DNA of 42,044 nt from a virus: IMG/VR virus record IMGVR_UViG_3300028802_000034, positions 1-42,044 of that record. The stretch is one strand, 5' to 3'. Below are positions 5,534 through 40,078 of the stretch, one piece after another; the first letter of the stretch is position 1; the number at the start of each line of letters is the position of its first letter. The position numbers were made by a program, and so were the translations under genes. The notes beneath the pieces are model-generated. The model searched no databases. It was not told where the DNA came from and worked only from the letters and a program-made list of their open reading frames with translations.

Positions 5534-5790
5534 TATGGTCCCCTCCTGTTGCCTGCGCAGCGCGCCACCTCGATCTGTGTCCGCGCGGTTTGCTTGCACT
5601 GCATCTCCGCGTTGATGGCATCGACATCGGCGCGCGAGTAGACGTCAGGATCGAACAGCTCCAGCCCGAGGCGCTGCCGGGCGCAGCCGCTCAGAAGCAC
5701 GATGGTGATCGCCAGCGCGGCGATCGTGGCGATCGTCAGCAGGGGACGCCGACGCATCCCGCTGAATAGGCGATCGCCGATCTGGGTCAT
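5533..5790 (-). CDS. Small lipoprotein, possible outer-membrane spanin (85 aa)
   Basis: After a basic start (MTQIGDRLFSGMRRRP) comes a hydrophobic segment (residues 17-35) ending in LLSGC, a good lipobox with Cys36 as the lipidation site. The mature part is about 50 residues with two further Cys. The start at 5790 overlaps the fibre gene stop by 4 bp, and the end abuts the holin candidate. A lipoprotein beside a holin is typical of Rz1-like o-spanins, but those are usually Pro-rich and overlap an i-spanin, which is not seen here. A superinfection-exclusion lipoprotein is the alternative. Confidence 0.6.
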   Translation of the reverse strand: MTQIGDRLFSGMRRRPLLTIATIAALAITIVLLSGCARQRLGLELFDPDVYSRADVDAINAEMQCKQTARTQIEVARCAGNRRGP

Positions 5791-28751: not shown

Positions 28752-28963
28752 GGCGGCATCATCTCCTGCAGCTGTGTGACGCTGACGATCTTGACGTCGA
28801 CGTTATCATTGCCGCCAGCGCCGTAGTGCAGCCGCAACACACCAGCGGCCTGCTGCGTCACCATCCGCACGAACGCCATGTTGACGAGGATCAGAGCATC
28901 GTCAGGCGATCGGCGGAAGGAGCGGAACGACGGCCGCGTGCCGATGTTGGAGCTGCTCGCCAT
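28748..28963 (-). CDS. Small late protein after portal (71 aa)
   Basis: The start MASSSNIGTRPSFRSFRRSP overlaps the portal stop by one base (TGATG). A central helix (DDALILVNMAFVRMVTQQAA) and two strands (VLRLHYGAG, VDVKIVSVTQL) make a compact alpha-beta unit. No family is recognised. Its tight coupling to the portal suggests a minor head component. Longer in-frame starts would run back through the portal gene and are not supported. Confidence 0.6.
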   Translation of the reverse strand: MASSSNIGTRPSFRSFRRSPDDALILVNMAFVRMVTQQAAGVLRLHYGAGGNDNVDVKIVSVTQLQEMMPP

Positions 28964-31281
28964 CAGTTCGGCCTCCGTGCTGGAGCTGGCCTCGCGATCG
29001 ACGCCATCTGGCGCTCGTTGGCGCGGTTCGCCATGTCCTGCTGCTTGGCGGCGTGCTGCTGCATCGTCATCTGCGCCTTCTGCCGCGCCAGATCCATGTC
29101 TTGGCTCTTCTCCAGCATGTGCGCCTGATGGCTCTCGCGGTTCTCCATCGCCTTCTGGTTCTGCACCTGCATCTTGCCTTGCTGGTCGCCCTGCTTGGCC
29201 TGCATCTCCGCCATCTTGATGGTACGCTCGTTCTCCAGCTCCCACTGCTTGTGCTTGTCCTTCTGCACCAGCTCCTGCGCCTTGAGTGCGGCGTCGGCCT
29301 TGTTCTTCTCCTTCACCGTCGCGTCCTTCATCTGCTCGATCTGCAGCGCGATGCGGTTCTGCGCGGTGGTCGGATCCTCGCTTGGTCCCTGCTCGCCCTT
29401 CACCTTCATCAGCTCGACCAGCGCGTCGATCTGGCCCTCCAGCGCGCGACCGGCGCGGAACGGAGCGGTGGCGAACTTCAGCACCTCGCCGCAGAACTCC
29501 GCCGTCTGCGGCTCGCCGGTCATCATCTGCGCCAGCTGCGGCAGCAGATTGCCGAGCACCTGCGTGAACTCGGTGCGGCGCTCCTTCTCCGCGTTCTCGT
29601 CCTGCATGATCGTGCTGTCGGTCTCGATGTCGAGCACGAACGATTTGGATTTGCCGTCTTTCAGGAAGTAGAGCACCTGATCGAGCGTCGCCTCCTCCTG
29701 CAGCTTCTGGTACTGCGACTGCAGCTGCGCCAGCTGCGTATTGACCTGCGCCATCGGATCCTCCGGCGGCTTGGTCGACGGTGTCGTCACGCCTTCCTGC
29801 TGCGGCGGTGCCAGCTGTTGCTGCTGCGCCTGCTGCATCAGCTGCTGCGCCTTCTGCCGGATCTGCTGCGCCTTCTGCTGCTGCATCTGCGACGTCGGCA
29901 GCTGCGTCTGGCTCATCTCGATCATGGTCTCGGGCTTGAACTGCTGCGTGATGATCTCGCTCGTGATCTCGACGAGGTCGCGCGCAAGGCGCACCAGCTC
30001 CTGCTGCTTGTCGCGGATCCTCGTAGAGCCGTACTGCGTCTTGAGCTGCTGCGCGCCGAGCGTCTCGTTGGGATCTGTCGCACCGCGCATGATGTCGGAC
30101 AGTCCCATTATCTGGTAGATGTCCTCGATCACCTGCTTGCGCAGTGCCACCAGCGCCGTGATGGTCTGCGCGATCATGTCGATCGGCAACCAGATGATGA
30201 CGTCCTTGCTGCCGCCGAACGCCGCCCAGTTGCTGATCGGGATCAGCATGCGACCCGGCGTGTGCGTCGTTACTGCGGCCTGTACCGCCTCCGCCAGTTC
30301 GCCGCCGCCTGCGGGATAGAAGCCCTTGGCCTCGATCGCGTCGCTCAGGGCGTGAATGCGACCAGTGAGTAGATTGATCTCGTCGAGCTGGTCCTTGTAC
30401 TGCATCACGTCAGGCACCGGGATCAGCGATCGCCGCTGCACCGTGCCGTACGCTGGCTTGGGACAGGGGAAGTAGTCCTTCAGCTTCAGGTGCGCGGCGT
30501 CCTCGTCGAGGATCTCGTCGACGGCTTCAGCGACCCACACCACGCGCTTCGCGCCCTTGTCCCAGATCTCCCAGAACTTGGCGCGTTCGCGATTGTCAGC
30601 GCCGCCGACGTTCTTGGCCTCCTTGTCGACCCTGTACTCGGCCTGCTGATAGGCGTCGCCGCTCGTTGCCTTGAACCGCTTGCGCGCCTCGCCACGCGTC
30701 AGGTAGCTGGCACCGGCGACCCACGTCACCTCACGCCAGTTGCGGCTGATGCTGTGCAGGAAGTCACGACGATCCTTGAAGTCGATACAGACGCGCTCGG
30801 TGTCGTAGTCGCCGCCCTCGGCGCTCTCGTAGCGCACCCACGCCACGCCGCGACTGTTCATGCTGAGGTCGTCGCGCACCAGCAGCATCAGGTCATTGAT
30901 GCGGGTCAGGTCGAACGACACGACGCAGCAGCGCTCCATCATCTCGGCAGCTGCCTGATAGACCGGCCTCCTGTCCTTGAACTTGGTGGCGACGACGGGG
31001 ATCGGCGGGCGCGCATAGATGCTCGGCTTGAGAACCTCGCAGTTGGCCCAGAACATCTGGAACTCCTTGTCGCGGCCGTAGCGCGCGAGCCGCTCAAGGT
31101 TGGCGAACTGCTTGTCGATGTGGTCGCAGTGATCATTCCAGCTCTCGAACGCGTCCTCGCTCTCCCTGATCAGGTTGAGCCACGCCTTGCTGCTCTTCGG
31201 CTCCAGCGCCGGGTTGAACTCAAGGTCGTCGTGCTTGACGTCATCGCCGACCGGCTTGTCGTTGTCAGGCTTACGCGCCAT
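28963..31281 (-). CDS. Portal protein (772 aa)
   Basis: This is the dodecameric DNA-entry ring of the head. The N-terminal region (WLNLIRESEDAFESWNDHCD, EFQMFWANCEVLKPSIYARP, PIPVVATKFKDRRPVYQAAA) and MNSRGVAWVRYE follow the large P22-like portals found in Burkholderia and Rhizobiales podoviruses. A long Gln-rich helical crown/barrel follows (about residues 455-520, QLPTSQMQQQKAQQIRQKAQ) and then an extended basic coiled-coil C-terminus. Length (772) fits the large class with a barrel. GGAGAGAAG precedes the ATG. Terminase genes lie upstream, as expected. Confidence 0.88.
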   Translation of the reverse strand: MARKPDNDKPVGDDVKHDDLEFNPALEPKSSKAWLNLIRESEDAFESWNDHCDHIDKQFANLERLARYGRDKEFQMFWANCEVLKPSIYARPPIPVVATKFKDRRPVYQAAAEMMERCCVVSFDLTRINDLMLLVRDDLSMNSRGVAWVRYESAEGGDYDTERVCIDFKDRRDFLHSISRNWREVTWVAGASYLTRGEARKRFKATSGDAYQQAEYRVDKEAKNVGGADNRERAKFWEIWDKGAKRVVWVAEAVDEILDEDAAHLKLKDYFPCPKPAYGTVQRRSLIPVPDVMQYKDQLDEINLLTGRIHALSDAIEAKGFYPAGGGELAEAVQAAVTTHTPGRMLIPISNWAAFGGSKDVIIWLPIDMIAQTITALVALRKQVIEDIYQIMGLSDIMRGATDPNETLGAQQLKTQYGSTRIRDKQQELVRLARDLVEITSEIITQQFKPETMIEMSQTQLPTSQMQQQKAQQIRQKAQQLMQQAQQQQLAPPQQEGVTTPSTKPPEDPMAQVNTQLAQLQSQYQKLQEEATLDQVLYFLKDGKSKSFVLDIETDSTIMQDENAEKERRTEFTQVLGNLLPQLAQMMTGEPQTAEFCGEVLKFATAPFRAGRALEGQIDALVELMKVKGEQGPSEDPTTAQNRIALQIEQMKDATVKEKNKADAALKAQELVQKDKHKQWELENERTIKMAEMQAKQGDQQGKMQVQNQKAMENRESHQAHMLEKSQDMDLARQKAQMTMQQHAAKQQDMANRANERQMASIARPAPARRPN

Positions 31282-31558
31282 TGCTTCTCTCCGCCTTGCG
31301 CCGCCGGTAGGCCGCGATGATGTCGTCTGCGGTCGGATCGAGGTGGACCATCGAGTTGGCGACGGCCGCCAGCAGGTAGCCGTCGAAGTCCTTCTCGTCG
31401 CGCAGCACCGCAGTGACCTCGCCCGCGAGGTCGAGGATACGCTGCCACGCCAAGACCTCTGGCGTCGGTATCGGCAGCACCAGCTGCACCGGCAGCGCGT
31501 CAGGCTCGATCGGCCGCACCGTCATCTCCGCGCCGTCGTACCAGACCGGCGCGAACAT
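31271..31558 (-). CDS. Small protein between the tRNA-like RNA and portal (95 aa)
   Basis: The ATG at 31558 (MFAPVWYDGAEMTVRPIEPD) is chosen as the longest ATG start that does not enter the structured RNA; ATG 31525 (84 aa) is possible, and neither has a strong ribosome site. The protein has a beta start (ALPVQLVLPIPTP) and a helical C-terminus (LAWQRILDLAGEVTAVLRDE, then TADDIIAAYRRRKAE). It overlaps the portal start by 11 bp. Function unknown. The weak initiation region may mean that translation is controlled by the upstream RNA structure. Confidence 0.6.
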   Translation of the reverse strand: MFAPVWYDGAEMTVRPIEPDALPVQLVLPIPTPEVLAWQRILDLAGEVTAVLRDEKDFDGYLLAAVANSMVHLDPTADDIIAAYRRRKAERSNGA

Positions 31559-31596
31559 CGGGTCACGATCGGCCGCGCCTCTACTGACGCGAAATG

Positions 31597-31681
31597 TGCG
31601 GGGAGCAGTGGGACTTGAACCCACCGGCTCCCCTGACGAGGGCGACGCACCGTTAGAGCATGTCATACGGTCAGATGCGTC
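31597..31681 (-). ncRNA. tRNA-like structure: acceptor/T-arm minihelix with upstream hairpin
   Basis: On the minus strand, GGGGAGC (31633-31627) pairs with GCTCCCC (31606-31600), enclosing GTGGG-TTCAAGT-CCCAC (31624-31608). This is a 7-bp acceptor-like stem stacked on a 5-bp T stem with a canonical TTCRANN T-loop, followed by GCA. It is the top half of a tRNA, with no D or anticodon arm between. Just upstream, ACCGT/ACGGT extended by GACGC/GCGTC (31681-31644) forms a second hairpin. The structure fills most of a 197-bp gap (31559-31755) in an otherwise gapless operon. It could be a tRNA 3' fragment (att-like), an RNase P/RNase Z processing signal, or a regulatory RNA. Confidence 0.45.
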
Positions 31682-31755
31682 GCAGGCACCGGAGCCATGC
31701 TCGGCGGAAGGTGCCACTGCGGCCTGTAAGTGTCGGCCTACCTCGCGTCTCAATC

Positions 31756-33120
31756 TCATAATTGGATGCCTCCGCGTCGCGGTGCCGAGGGCGGCGGGAT
31801 CACCCAGCCGCGCCTGATGGGTTCGACCACGCGCCTGACCGGCGCTGGCCTGTAGCCGAGCGCGAGGTAGCGGAACGCGTCGGCGATGTCGCTCGTCCAG
31901 TCGTGCAGCGGGTTGGCCTTGAACGCCTTCTTCTCGTCGTCCCACTCGCGCCGGTGCATCTCCAGCGCGGCGAAGCCGACCTCCTCGGTGCGCTCGTGGA
32001 AGACGCACAGTGGCAGCGCGCGTCGCGCGGCGTTGACGCCGTCGAGCACGCTCGCCATCGGCACCAGCAGCGGCTTGAGACCAAGCATGCTCATGGTCTC
32101 GACGCGCGTCCTGCCGCTGCCCCACTCCTTCACCTTGGCGTCGTGCGGCACGTAGTCGGTGCCGTGCTTCCAGCCGTGCTTGCCCTCGCGATCGAACAGC
32201 TCGTCGCGGATGTGCTCAACGCCGACACCGTTCATCTTGATGATGTCGTGTATCAGCACCTGCGCACCGACTACTTGGAAGGCCCACGCGACCGTGTCAT
32301 CGGACACGCCGATATCCCAAGCCCAGTTCATCGGCAGGTCAGGCTCGGCGTCGAACGCCATGATGCGGCCCTCGTCGCGCACCTGCGCGCACTCCAGCGC
32401 ATAGAAGCTGCCGAGCGTGCTCGCCGTGAAATCGCAGAGCAGCTCCTGCCGGTACATCGCGGTGCCGTGATCGAGGCCGTACAGCGCGACGTATTCTCGC
32501 AGCGCCTCGTCGAGCTGCGTCTGCGTCAGCACGCCGGTGTCCTCCGCCGTCAGCTTCTCGGCGAACCAGTCCGCTGTCGAGCGCGCGTGGTTCAGCATCG
32601 TGAAGGCGTGGTTGCGGCCGCGCGGCGTAGTGATGAACATCGCCCAGCCGTTGTTCTCGTTGAGCATCGGCTGGTAGTAGCCCCACGCGGCCGGGTTGCT
32701 AAGAGCGAACTCCGACATGGTGACGCCGACGCAGCTAGAGCCGATCGTCCTGTTGTACTGGTCGCTGCCGACGCACTGCCACGTCGAGCCGGTGCCCTTG
32801 AAGCGGATGAACATCTCGTGGTCGTTGGTGCTCTCGCGCATATCGTGCGGGAACGCCTCGTCGATGCGGCGGATGCCGGTGTGCGGATTGACGGCCGTCC
32901 AGATCGCGCGCCGCGCCATCGCGAACTCGGGGAGGGAATGCCAGTAATTGCCCGGCCTTCGGATTGACGAGACCGCAGCCCAGTGCAGCGCCACCTCGTC
33001 CTTACCGGCGCGGCGGTGCCAGACCGCCATCGCGCGCTTGCCGCCGTCTTGTAGGTACTTCCACAGCGCCAGCTGGTGAGGTCTAGGCTCCCAGTCGTTG
33101 TACGGCACTGTGATCTTCAT
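31756..33120 (-). CDS. Terminase large subunit (454 aa)
   Basis: The packaging motor ATPase and nuclease, complete. Walker A is seen as HRRAGKDE (residues 35-42) and a Walker B-like GVTMSEF at 132-138, with the Ser-Glu pair usual for this subgroup, followed by ALSNPAAWGYYQPML. The coupling motif is FITTPRG (162-168). The nuclease domain has WAWDIGVSDD (Asp269 and Asp274) and a C-terminal DWTSDIADAFRYL carrying further metal ligands. The ATG overlaps the small-subunit candidate stop (ATGA). The type of DNA end (cos or pac) cannot be settled from sequence, but circular permutation of the contig hints at headful packaging. Confidence 0.92.
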   Translation of the reverse strand: MKITVPYNDWEPRPHQLALWKYLQDGGKRAMAVWHRRAGKDEVALHWAAVSSIRRPGNYWHSLPEFAMARRAIWTAVNPHTGIRRIDEAFPHDMRESTNDHEMFIRFKGTGSTWQCVGSDQYNRTIGSSCVGVTMSEFALSNPAAWGYYQPMLNENNGWAMFITTPRGRNHAFTMLNHARSTADWFAEKLTAEDTGVLTQTQLDEALREYVALYGLDHGTAMYRQELLCDFTASTLGSFYALECAQVRDEGRIMAFDAEPDLPMNWAWDIGVSDDTVAWAFQVVGAQVLIHDIIKMNGVGVEHIRDELFDREGKHGWKHGTDYVPHDAKVKEWGSGRTRVETMSMLGLKPLLVPMASVLDGVNAARRALPLCVFHERTEEVGFAALEMHRREWDDEKKAFKANPLHDWTSDIADAFRYLALGYRPAPVRRVVEPIRRGWVIPPPSAPRRGGIQL

Positions 33121-37951: not shown

Positions 37952-38008
37952 CTAATGGCTCCCGTGCAATAGATGCCAGACCATAACCGATATTCGCAGA
38001 AGGTAACC

Positions 38009-39271
38009 ATGTCCCAGCACTCGCCCCTCGTCGGCGGCTCGATCGCCGCTATGCGCCTCGCCTGCCCCGGCAGCTATCAGGCCACGCTCGCCCTTCCCGC
38101 CACCGCCGAGATCTCATCTGTCTATGCCGAGGAGGGCACGTTCGCCCACGCCTGCATGGACATCGTGATGAAGCACCGCATGCAGCACTGCGTGGCGTGG
38201 GCCGATGCCTACGACTACATGATGGCCGACGCCGTCAACCTCGTCGGCATGCACGTCCACGATCGCGAGGTGACGCTGTCGCACATCGAGGACATGATCG
38301 GCCCCGCGATCGATGCGCTGTGGGAGCTGGAGCAGACCTACGGCGGCGGCTTCAAGGTGCTCGCGATCGAGCTGCGCGTGCGCTTCCCCGCCGTCCCCGG
38401 CGCGTTCGGCACCATGGATCTCGTGCTCGGCAATTCCGACACCGTCCTGCACATCGACTGGAAGTTCGGCTCCGGCGTCCCGGTCAAGGCCGCCTACGTC
38501 CACGGCGACACCGAGACCGTCAACGCGCAGCTGCTGTTCTACGCGACGGCCGCCAAGCACAGCGCGCGGCACCTGTACCGGGGCCGCCCCAAGATGGCCG
38601 TCGCCATCATCCAGCCGCGCACCGCGACGCCGCTGACGCACACCACGATCGGCCCGAAGGACATCAAGTATTTCCGCGCCGACATCGAGAAGGCGATCGT
38701 CACCGCGACGTCGCCGAACCCGCCGCGCGCCCGGGGCGATCACTGCCGCTTCGCGCCGTGCAAGGTGTCGTGCCCGCTCTGGACCGGGCCGATGCTGGAG
38801 TTCATGGGCGTCACCGACATCACCGCGCCGGAGATCACGCCGACCGTGTTCGGCGAATACCTCGCCAAGGCCAAGGCGCTGTCCGACATCGCGGAGGGCT
38901 ACATCAAGGAGGTCAACGAGCAGCTGCACGCCTTTCTGGAGGCTGGCGAGCAGGTGCCGGGCTGGCGTCTGAAGGCCAAGGCCAAGCAGCGCCAGTGGGT
39001 CGACGAGGAGATTGTCGAGCACGCTCTGGAGGACGTCGGCTTCGACACCAAGGACATCTACACCCGCAAGCTGGTGACGTTTGCTGCGGCCGAGAAGACC
39101 GCCAAGCGCCTCGGCGTCAAGATCCCCGAGGAGCTGCGCGTCGCGCCGCCCTCCACCGAGACCACGGTCTGCCGCACCGACGACCCTGCGCCTGTCGTCA
39201 CCAAGGCAGTCGCATCCGACCAGTTCCGCGCCGCGCTGGCGCAGATTACGGCGACGACCACCAGCCGCTAA
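38009..39271 (+). CDS. DUF2800 / RecB-Cas4-like nuclease (420 aa)
   Basis: The ATG at 38009 has AAGG nine bases upstream and is preferred over an ATG 12 codons earlier. The N-terminus SPLVGGSIAAMRLACPGSYQ and YAEEGTFAHACMD (the conserved EGT-AH motif) identify DUF2800. The nuclease core is AFGTMDLVL followed by LHIDWKFGSG (Asp...D-x-K) and a QL-type motif in VNAQLLFYATAA. Cys19 plus DHCRFAPCKVSCPLW supply four Cys that could hold an iron-sulfur cluster, as in Cas4/AddB. Phage members are thought to be exonucleases for recombination. It opens the rightward replication operon, divergent from VRR-NUC. Confidence 0.87.
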   Translation: MSQHSPLVGGSIAAMRLACPGSYQATLALPATAEISSVYAEEGTFAHACMDIVMKHRMQHCVAWADAYDYMMADAVNLVGMHVHDREVTLSHIEDMIGPAIDALWELEQTYGGGFKVLAIELRVRFPAVPGAFGTMDLVLGNSDTVLHIDWKFGSGVPVKAAYVHGDTETVNAQLLFYATAAKHSARHLYRGRPKMAVAIIQPRTATPLTHTTIGPKDIKYFRADIEKAIVTATSPNPPRARGDHCRFAPCKVSCPLWTGPMLEFMGVTDITAPEITPTVFGEYLAKAKALSDIAEGYIKEVNEQLHAFLEAGEQVPGWRLKAKAKQRQWVDEEIVEHALEDVGFDTKDIYTRKLVTFAAAEKTAKRLGVKIPEELRVAPPSTETTVCRTDDPAPVVTKAVASDQFRAALAQITATTTSR

Positions 39272-39301
39272 TGCGTGGTCAATCTACCGGAGAACATAAC
39301 C

Positions 39302-40078
39302 ATGACTGACATTGTGAAAACCAACGCCAACCTGCCCGCCGACTTCGGCGCAAACCTGATGCGCGGCCTCGCCGACACCCGCGCCGCGATCGTCGTCGCC
39401 GACGGCAAGCCGTTCTTCCGCCTGCTGCGGGACGGAACCTACGTCTTCGGTGCTGGCAACGAGGAGGTGCAGGACGGCTCGCGCTGGGCCGTCAACCTCG
39501 CCTCGATGTGCCGTGGCTGGGTCTGCTGGATCGACGGCGAGCTGCAGGGGCAGGTGATGGCGAGCGTGCAGGCACCCCGCCTGCCGCAGCCCGCGCCGGT
39601 CAACGGCACGGCGTACGCCGAGCAGTTCGGCTTCGACATTGTCTGCCTGACCGGCACCGACAAGGGCGTCAACGCGCAGTACAAGAACAACAGCTACGGC
39701 TTCAAGAAGGCGTTCGACCAGCTCTGCTCCGACATCGCTAGCCGCTACGTCACCGACCAGCGCTACTACTGGCCGATCCTGACGTTCACGGCGGAGAGCT
39801 ACGACCACAAGCGCTACGGCGAGATATGGAACCCGATCTTCAACGTGGTGGCGTGGGCCGACGCCGAGGGCAACATCGCCGGTCAGGCCAAGACCGCGAT
39901 CGACGACGCCCCGGCGGCCGACGCCGCCCCCGCCAAGCCGGTCGCCAAGCGCTCCCGCAAGCCCACGCTGGCGGAGGAAGTGGCTGCTGATCCGGCCGTG
40001 CTGGAGGCGCAGACCGCCCGCGCGGCGGAGGCTCAGAAGCAGGTGCAGGGCCAGCGCCGCCGCCCGGTGGCCCGCTAA
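39302..40078 (+). CDS. Unrecognised protein paired with DUF2800, possible ssDNA-binding role (258 aa)
   Basis: The ATG at 39302 (MTDIVKTNANLPADFGANLM) has GGAG at ten bases. Residues ~20-195 form a beta-rich domain with aromatic-containing strands (FFRLLRDGTYVFGAGNEEVQ, GRWAVNL-like SRWAVNLASMCRGWVCWIDG, FGFDIVCLTGTDKGVNAQYK, YYWPILTFTAESYDHKRYGE). The C-terminus is an Ala/Pro/Lys-rich disordered tail ending in a basic RRRPVAR. In many phages DUF2800 is followed by a single-strand-binding DUF2815 protein. This gene has the position but not the clear sequence, so the SSB role is only suggested. Confidence 0.65.
   Translation: MTDIVKTNANLPADFGANLMRGLADTRAAIVVADGKPFFRLLRDGTYVFGAGNEEVQDGSRWAVNLASMCRGWVCWIDGELQGQVMASVQAPRLPQPAPVNGTAYAEQFGFDIVCLTGTDKGVNAQYKNNSYGFKKAFDQLCSDIASRYVTDQRYYWPILTFTAESYDHKRYGEIWNPIFNVVAWADAEGNIAGQAKTAIDDAPAADAAPAKPVAKRSRKPTLAEEVAADPAVLEAQTARAAEAQKQVQGQRRRPVAR

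Follow-up and report, generated by a model that had tools for sequence, protein, structure and literature searches.

As judged by sequence comparison, the gap between the terminase and portal genes of the analysed phage DNA (IMG/VR record IMGVR_UViG_3300028802_000034, 42,044 nt, here called the window) is occupied by a member of a real phage RNA family. This is based on its helices, on its recurrence at three genomic sites and on the conservation of a tRNA-like hairpin, P3. The entire structured RNA comprises 147 nt (31600–31746, minus strand), from the 5' strand of a closing stem (P_A) to the end of the T-loop hairpin; it was delimited by homology to the related locus L153, by two covariance models (R1 and R2) and by the architecture common to the members. 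Best explained, with a probability of roughly 45%, it would be a phage RNA gene whose product is released by a host tRNA enzyme, the P_A domain probably acting in trans. The first-pass annotation had recognised a minihelix in the gap (31559–31755). The minihelix does lie there, and the reading given to it is supported in part, but the RNA is larger and is found in some phages in the replication region.

The tRNA-like minihelix on the minus strand was confirmed at 31600–31633. It is not a chance product, since random windows matched in dinucleotide composition give only about 0.017 T-loop minihelices each, even when G-U pairs are admitted and the junctions may be loose. Among the window and 80 loci of TerL relatives it was the only one. 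This hairpin of acceptor and T-arm-like parts reads GGGGAGC-CG-GTGGG-TTCAAGT-CCCAC-T-GCTCCCC, followed by GCA, with the T-loop TTCAAGT at 31613–31619. The acceptor 5' strand directly abuts the T arm and every pair drawn in this way is Watson-Crick; read as a single helix (GGGGAG, bulged C, CGGTGGG), P3 has 13 pairs including one G-U. Across the family, in which it is the most conserved part, it takes the form of a 13–14 bp T-loop hairpin, GGGGAGC-C-GGTGGG-TTCRAGT-CCCACT-GCTCCCC-GC. All 13 pairs are formed in all seven distinct sequences (100% of cells paired), compared with about 60% for slid controls. Double compensatory changes were detected at two pairs, A-U/U-A/G-C at one and G-C/A-U at the next. 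The interpretation as the top half of a tRNA, with the D and anticodon arms missing, was thus borne out by a hairpin kept in relatives.

The T-loop TTC[AG]AGT on five paired stem positions was found in 7/7 sequences, which corresponds to the TTCRANN loop on a 5-bp stem of tRNAs; it fits the tRNA consensus TTCRANT, and the closing pair is G-C. A 3' CCA is not encoded after P3 in the members, where GCA, GCT or GACA stand instead, and a T run as sign of a terminator was absent 3' of the hairpin in every member. The stacked stem has 13–14 bp with one bulged C, versus about 12 bp in the acceptor/T stem of the minimal RNase P substrate. The 13th pair is placed like the G-1:C73 pair of tRNA-His. In agreement with the first-pass annotation, which had spoken of no normal tRNA, neither a complete tRNA fold nor a tmRNA was found with ARAGORN and Rfam. 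ARAGORN detected no cloverleaf with default settings and only noise with introns or lowered thresholds, and the Rfam tRNA model did not match. A full tRNA with a distant 5' strand or an intron was rejected, as nothing exceeded the ARAGORN noise. For tmRNA, the covariance models gave no match at E values up to 10 in the window region or up to 5 in four member loci, and ARAGORN -m found none.

Relatives of the window were collected via TerL (80 loci, at most 65% identity). No T-loop minihelix was detected between TerL and portal in any TerL relative with a readable interval; conservation of the stem is therefore absent at the syntenic place, but it was found at other sites. The first of these is L153, brought in by the portal search, where 134 nt are homologous to the gap of the window (72% identity, E 7e-8); they lie in a 279-nt intergenic gap some 6 kb downstream from where portal starts. 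R1, the covariance model built from the window and L153, found L169 (E 1e-11), two more contigs of the L169 kind and the end-truncated L173 in 95 related records. When IMG/VR was scanned with a pattern, L185, L186, L187, L189 and further copies joined the family, and the models match L169, L183, L185–L187 and L189 at E values of 1e-9 to 1e-13. With R2, the model of the P3 hairpin alone, the known members were recovered at 4e-9 to 2e-13, and no credible new members were obtained in 99 records searched. In total, the family comprises 12 IMG/VR contigs and the window, with seven distinct sequences, from related soil phages. Only a minority of related phages carry the RNA; most sampled relatives are without it, many records being fragments.

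The exact hairpin occurred in no viral or species genome searched. The P3 matches in INPHARED proved to be ordinary tRNA genes in the regions read. Matches of the P1 pattern in L165 and L167 were chance coding matches, and weak model matches in L170 and L218 were also attributed to chance. At L181 (about 5670–5694, minus strand) a pattern-matching T-arm with an upstream GGGG was seen, with no ARAGORN tRNA and without the anatomy of the family. A separate observation concerns L204 (Pseudomonas phage tf, HE611333.2), where an unannotated core resembling a hammerhead ribozyme was recognised by eye at about 410–640 (about 2694–2925 of the accession). It consists of CTGATGAG-TCCC..GGGA-CGAAAC, a long stem, GTC and CCCG/CGGG; at E 0.1 nothing in Rfam matched it. 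Directly after the core comes a tRNA-like gene that ends in CCA and contains a long insert; ARAGORN misses this gene. For the family itself, no Rfam family was above the cut-off for any member tested, and no description of such an RNA family was found in the literature search. Apparently, this phage RNA family with tRNA mimicry is undescribed in Rfam and in the searched literature.

The RNAs of the members measure about 138–172 nt, and the 197-nt gap of the window folds better than its shuffles (z -2.6). In general, P_A encloses a small hairpin (P0) and the hairpins P1 and P2, and P3 follows after 1–3 nt. The 6–7 bases immediately before P3 pair with a strand 100–135 nt upstream to form P_A. 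In the window the 5' strand GCGAGG (31741–31746, minus) pairs with the 3' strand CCTCGT (31636–31641, minus). The variants ACGAGG/CCTCGT, ACGGAGG/CCTCCGT, TACGAGG/CCTCGTA, AACGAGG/CCTCGTT and CGAGGG/CCCTCG were found elsewhere, and a P_A with covariation stands directly before P3 in 6/6 other complete members. As P_A had been left out of model R1, it is an independent check. The single cases reach p values of 0.02 to 0.41 and are weak on their own in several members.

Within P_A, P0 (GGCC-N10-GGCC; 31721–31738, minus) has a compensatory GGTC/GACC in L153, and hairpins with a GCAA loop occupy its place in L153, L185, L187 and L189. P1 (GGCACC ... GGTGCC; 31685–31715, minus) was identified by comparison with other members. 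P2 (GCGACGCA ... TGCGTCGC; 31642–31683, minus) is the 10-bp bulged hairpin described earlier as preceding the minihelix, and it proved real. The loops of P1 and P2 can, judged by their letters, pair with each other (J): GAGCATG in the P1 loop (31696–31702, minus) is the perfect 7-bp complement of CATGCTC in the P2 loop (31656–31662, minus). At the like place, L153 has GAGCCGT/ACGGCTC, L185 GGACAGC/GCTGTCC, L169 GAATGCAA/TTGCATTC and L189 AACGTATC/GATACGTT. Scored against dinucleotide shuffles, the combination of P1, J and P2 gives a Fisher p of 5e-5 over seven members, which owing to their relatedness are not fully independent. The values are 0.003 for the window and for L153, 0.05 for L169 and 0.08–0.11 for L185, L187 and L189. 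L186 is no better than shuffles for this scheme (p 0.46), and its fold may differ from it. Outside P3 the sequences of the family have diverged while pairing persists; compensatory changes are seen in P_A and J, and also in P3 itself.

Three genomic sites were found for the RNA. Only the window carries it between TerL and portal; in L153, L185, L186 and L187 it lies beside TIG/Hoc-like head genes, and in the L169 group and L189 in the replication region upstream of TerL. The RNA is co-oriented with the flanking genes in every member, and no more than about 15 nt separate the start of P_A from the upstream stop codon wherever such a stop was identified. The downstream genes differ among the three sites. 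These differences in neighbourhood favour a gene-like, trans-acting or generic role over regulation of a single gene; the earlier suggestion of an RNA regulating the 95-aa gene is disfavoured accordingly. In the L169 group the RNA precedes a gene weakly similar to the nucleotidyltransferase-like gene of the window. The latter (phrog_9528) is located together with a Cas4-like/DUF2800 exonuclease at 37973–40078 on the plus strand, opposite to the late genes. The TerL-portal interval itself is a hypervariable cargo site in L002–L081, with lengths from -4 to 1512 nt.

Several known RNAs are comparable in part. RNase P cleaves acceptor-T-stem-loop hairpins and the natural phage RNAs M3 and C4 antisense RNA, and it also cuts some mRNAs (PMC11143913). 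In common with these minihelices and with M3 and C4, the family has a tRNA top half that lacks the D and anticodon arms, the location in a phage transcript and a plausible processing role (PMC11143913). It differs in the missing RCCA, in the 13–14 bp with a bulged C and in the large conserved junction domain upstream. An RCCA at the 3' side is preferred by bacterial RNase P. The phi29-type pRNA has a domain of about 100–140 nt, in which an end helix closes two hairpins with complementary loops; its sequence is divergent and its pairing conserved. P_A, P1, P2 and J resemble it as complementary loops inside a closing helix, weakly so in L186. In contrast, J is larger here (5–8 bp), an extra T-loop hairpin is present, TerL is ordinary and the position is not fixed; the Rfam covariance model of the phi29 pRNA gave no match. 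The ROOL and GOLLD RNAs are structured, phage-encoded RNAs with kissing loops and of unknown function (PMC12286853). The family shares these structural features, but measures 138–172 nt whereas ROOL and GOLLD reach about 600–800 nt or above and are often neighbours of tRNA islands, and their Rfam models did not match it. With tmRNA the family has a T arm and a pseudoknot-like pairing in common; here, however, the 5' and 3' ends form no acceptor stem. With the mascRNA of MALAT1, too, a structured RNA is immediately followed on its 3' side by a tRNA-like hairpin, whose T arm is weakly similar (15.6 bits, below the family cut-off). This animal RNA is cloverleaf-like, though, and has no homology to the phage RNA.

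The preferred explanation is a released phage RNA. The RNA would be transcribed along with the operon in which it lies, whichever one that is, and its start just past a stop codon would leave it ribosome-free. As the comparison shows, it folds into a junction closed by P_A, with the small hairpin, P1, P2 and pairable loops, and into a 3' mimic of the tRNA top half with acceptor stem, T stem and TTCRA T-loop. P3 may serve as a handle for one of the tRNA enzymes of the host. Among these, RNase P ranks first, given its cleavage of acceptor-T-stem-loop hairpins and of the phage RNAs M3 and C4 (PMC11143913). The cut would be expected at the 5' base of P3 (...A|GGGG), possibly with RNase Z acting on the 3' side. 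By such cleavage the P_A-domain RNA would be released from the polycistronic mRNA and receive a 3' end that is both defined and structured, and the stable P3 hairpin would then form the beginning of the downstream mRNA. Arguments against the RNase P step are the lack of RCCA and a stem that, owing to one additional pair and a bulged C, does not have precisely the 12 bp of a tRNA. A role in trans is probable for the released RNA, given that the genes around the element vary from phage to phage. Packaging, anti-defence and mRNA stability are candidates for the role of the P_A domain, and an assembly via kissing loops, as in pRNA or ROOL, would be attractive by analogy of architecture.

Instead of a free RNA, the element could be a cis-acting part of the mRNA, an operon-internal stabiliser or processing site which splits upstream from downstream mRNA and affects half-life, 3' end protection, relief of coupling or translation. 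Its co-orientation with the genes and its location just past an identified stop codon and shortly before the next start are in line with this, as is the existence of mRNAs among RNase P targets (PMC11143913). A simple processing site, however, would not need a junction of 100–135 nt whose loop-loop pairing survives while the sequence changes, and the RNA is present in late structural operons and the replication operon alike; we regard a purely cis-acting element as rather unlikely. Still somewhat less credit is given to a full-length tRNA mimic or decoy acting in trans, which would be CCA-added or T-loop-modified and bind EF-Tu, TruB/TrmA, the CCA enzyme, a synthetase or a tRNA-directed defence nuclease. 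It would account for the most conserved part being a consensus tRNA T-loop, and for a sporadic, mobile distribution like that of an accessory gene. The CCA is not encoded, though, the stem has an extra base pair and a bulge compared with tRNA, and no partner gene was found adjoining the RNA.

Very improbable, and largely refuted, is the explanation of the gap as the N-terminus of a 162-aa protein with P3 as an incidental hairpin. TerL, the terminase large subunit (31756–33120, minus; phrog_2, E 6.6e-21), lies immediately upstream, and the portal protein is encoded at 28963–31281 (minus; phrog_12082, E 3e-178). A minus-strand frame is open from the ATG at 31759 to 31271, with an ATGA overlap with the TerL stop and a GGAGG just upstream; ORF starts overlapping the TerL stop (ATGA/GTGA) are frequent at this interval among relatives. 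Codon usage at 31559–31758 is nevertheless non-coding (-0.45 per codon; gene mean +0.27, sd 0.27), and coding-like at 31274–31558 (+0.375). The 162-aa frame as query yielded no relatives, no protein relative was found for its first approximately 50 residues, homologous DNA is intergenic elsewhere, and all forward frames contain stops in the homologous RNAs of L186 and L187. The gap is thus noncoding by codon usage, as first assumed, although one minus-strand frame runs through it. The downstream protein is related to proteins in L019, L098, L084 and others from residue 52–54 or so of the long frame (about 31599, just past P3). The start at 31558 proposed for the 95-aa gene is therefore doubtful; it probably lies upstream, as homologous coding sequence suggests, and the gene is listed here as 31271–31603 (minus). 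No good start codon was seen just after P3, where the homologous protein begins. In L019 the same interval contains an ORF of 196 aa together with a start codon, and the RNA seems to occupy their place in the window. Least credible of all is a host tRNA remnant or phage attachment site, in favour of which speaks a 3' half that looks like a tRNA 3' end. The exact 25-mer was found in 0/84,980 species genomes, the genome pattern matches (L191–L203) are tRNA-Sec or tRNA-Cys genes according to ARAGORN, no integrase was found among the window genes scanned, and the structure is conserved over 140–170 nt.

Going beyond release by a tRNA enzyme, the family could represent a mobile class of trans-acting phage RNAs. 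In it, a loop-loop-paired domain, possibly self-assembling like pRNA or ROOL, would be joined to a tRNA top-half mimic which hijacks a host tRNA enzyme for RNase P release or even charging; such an RNA would act in packaging, in anti-defence or in host takeover. We consider this broad proposal unlikely in its entirety. Structured RNAs of unknown function are known in phages. A small phage RNA which fuses a loop-loop-paired junction to a tRNA top half, and which moves between operons of related phages with its fold kept, is apparently undescribed. It gives a testable case of a DNA phage that would use tRNA mimicry so that the host tRNA machinery cuts or binds its RNA, and a covariance model is at hand for finding further members.
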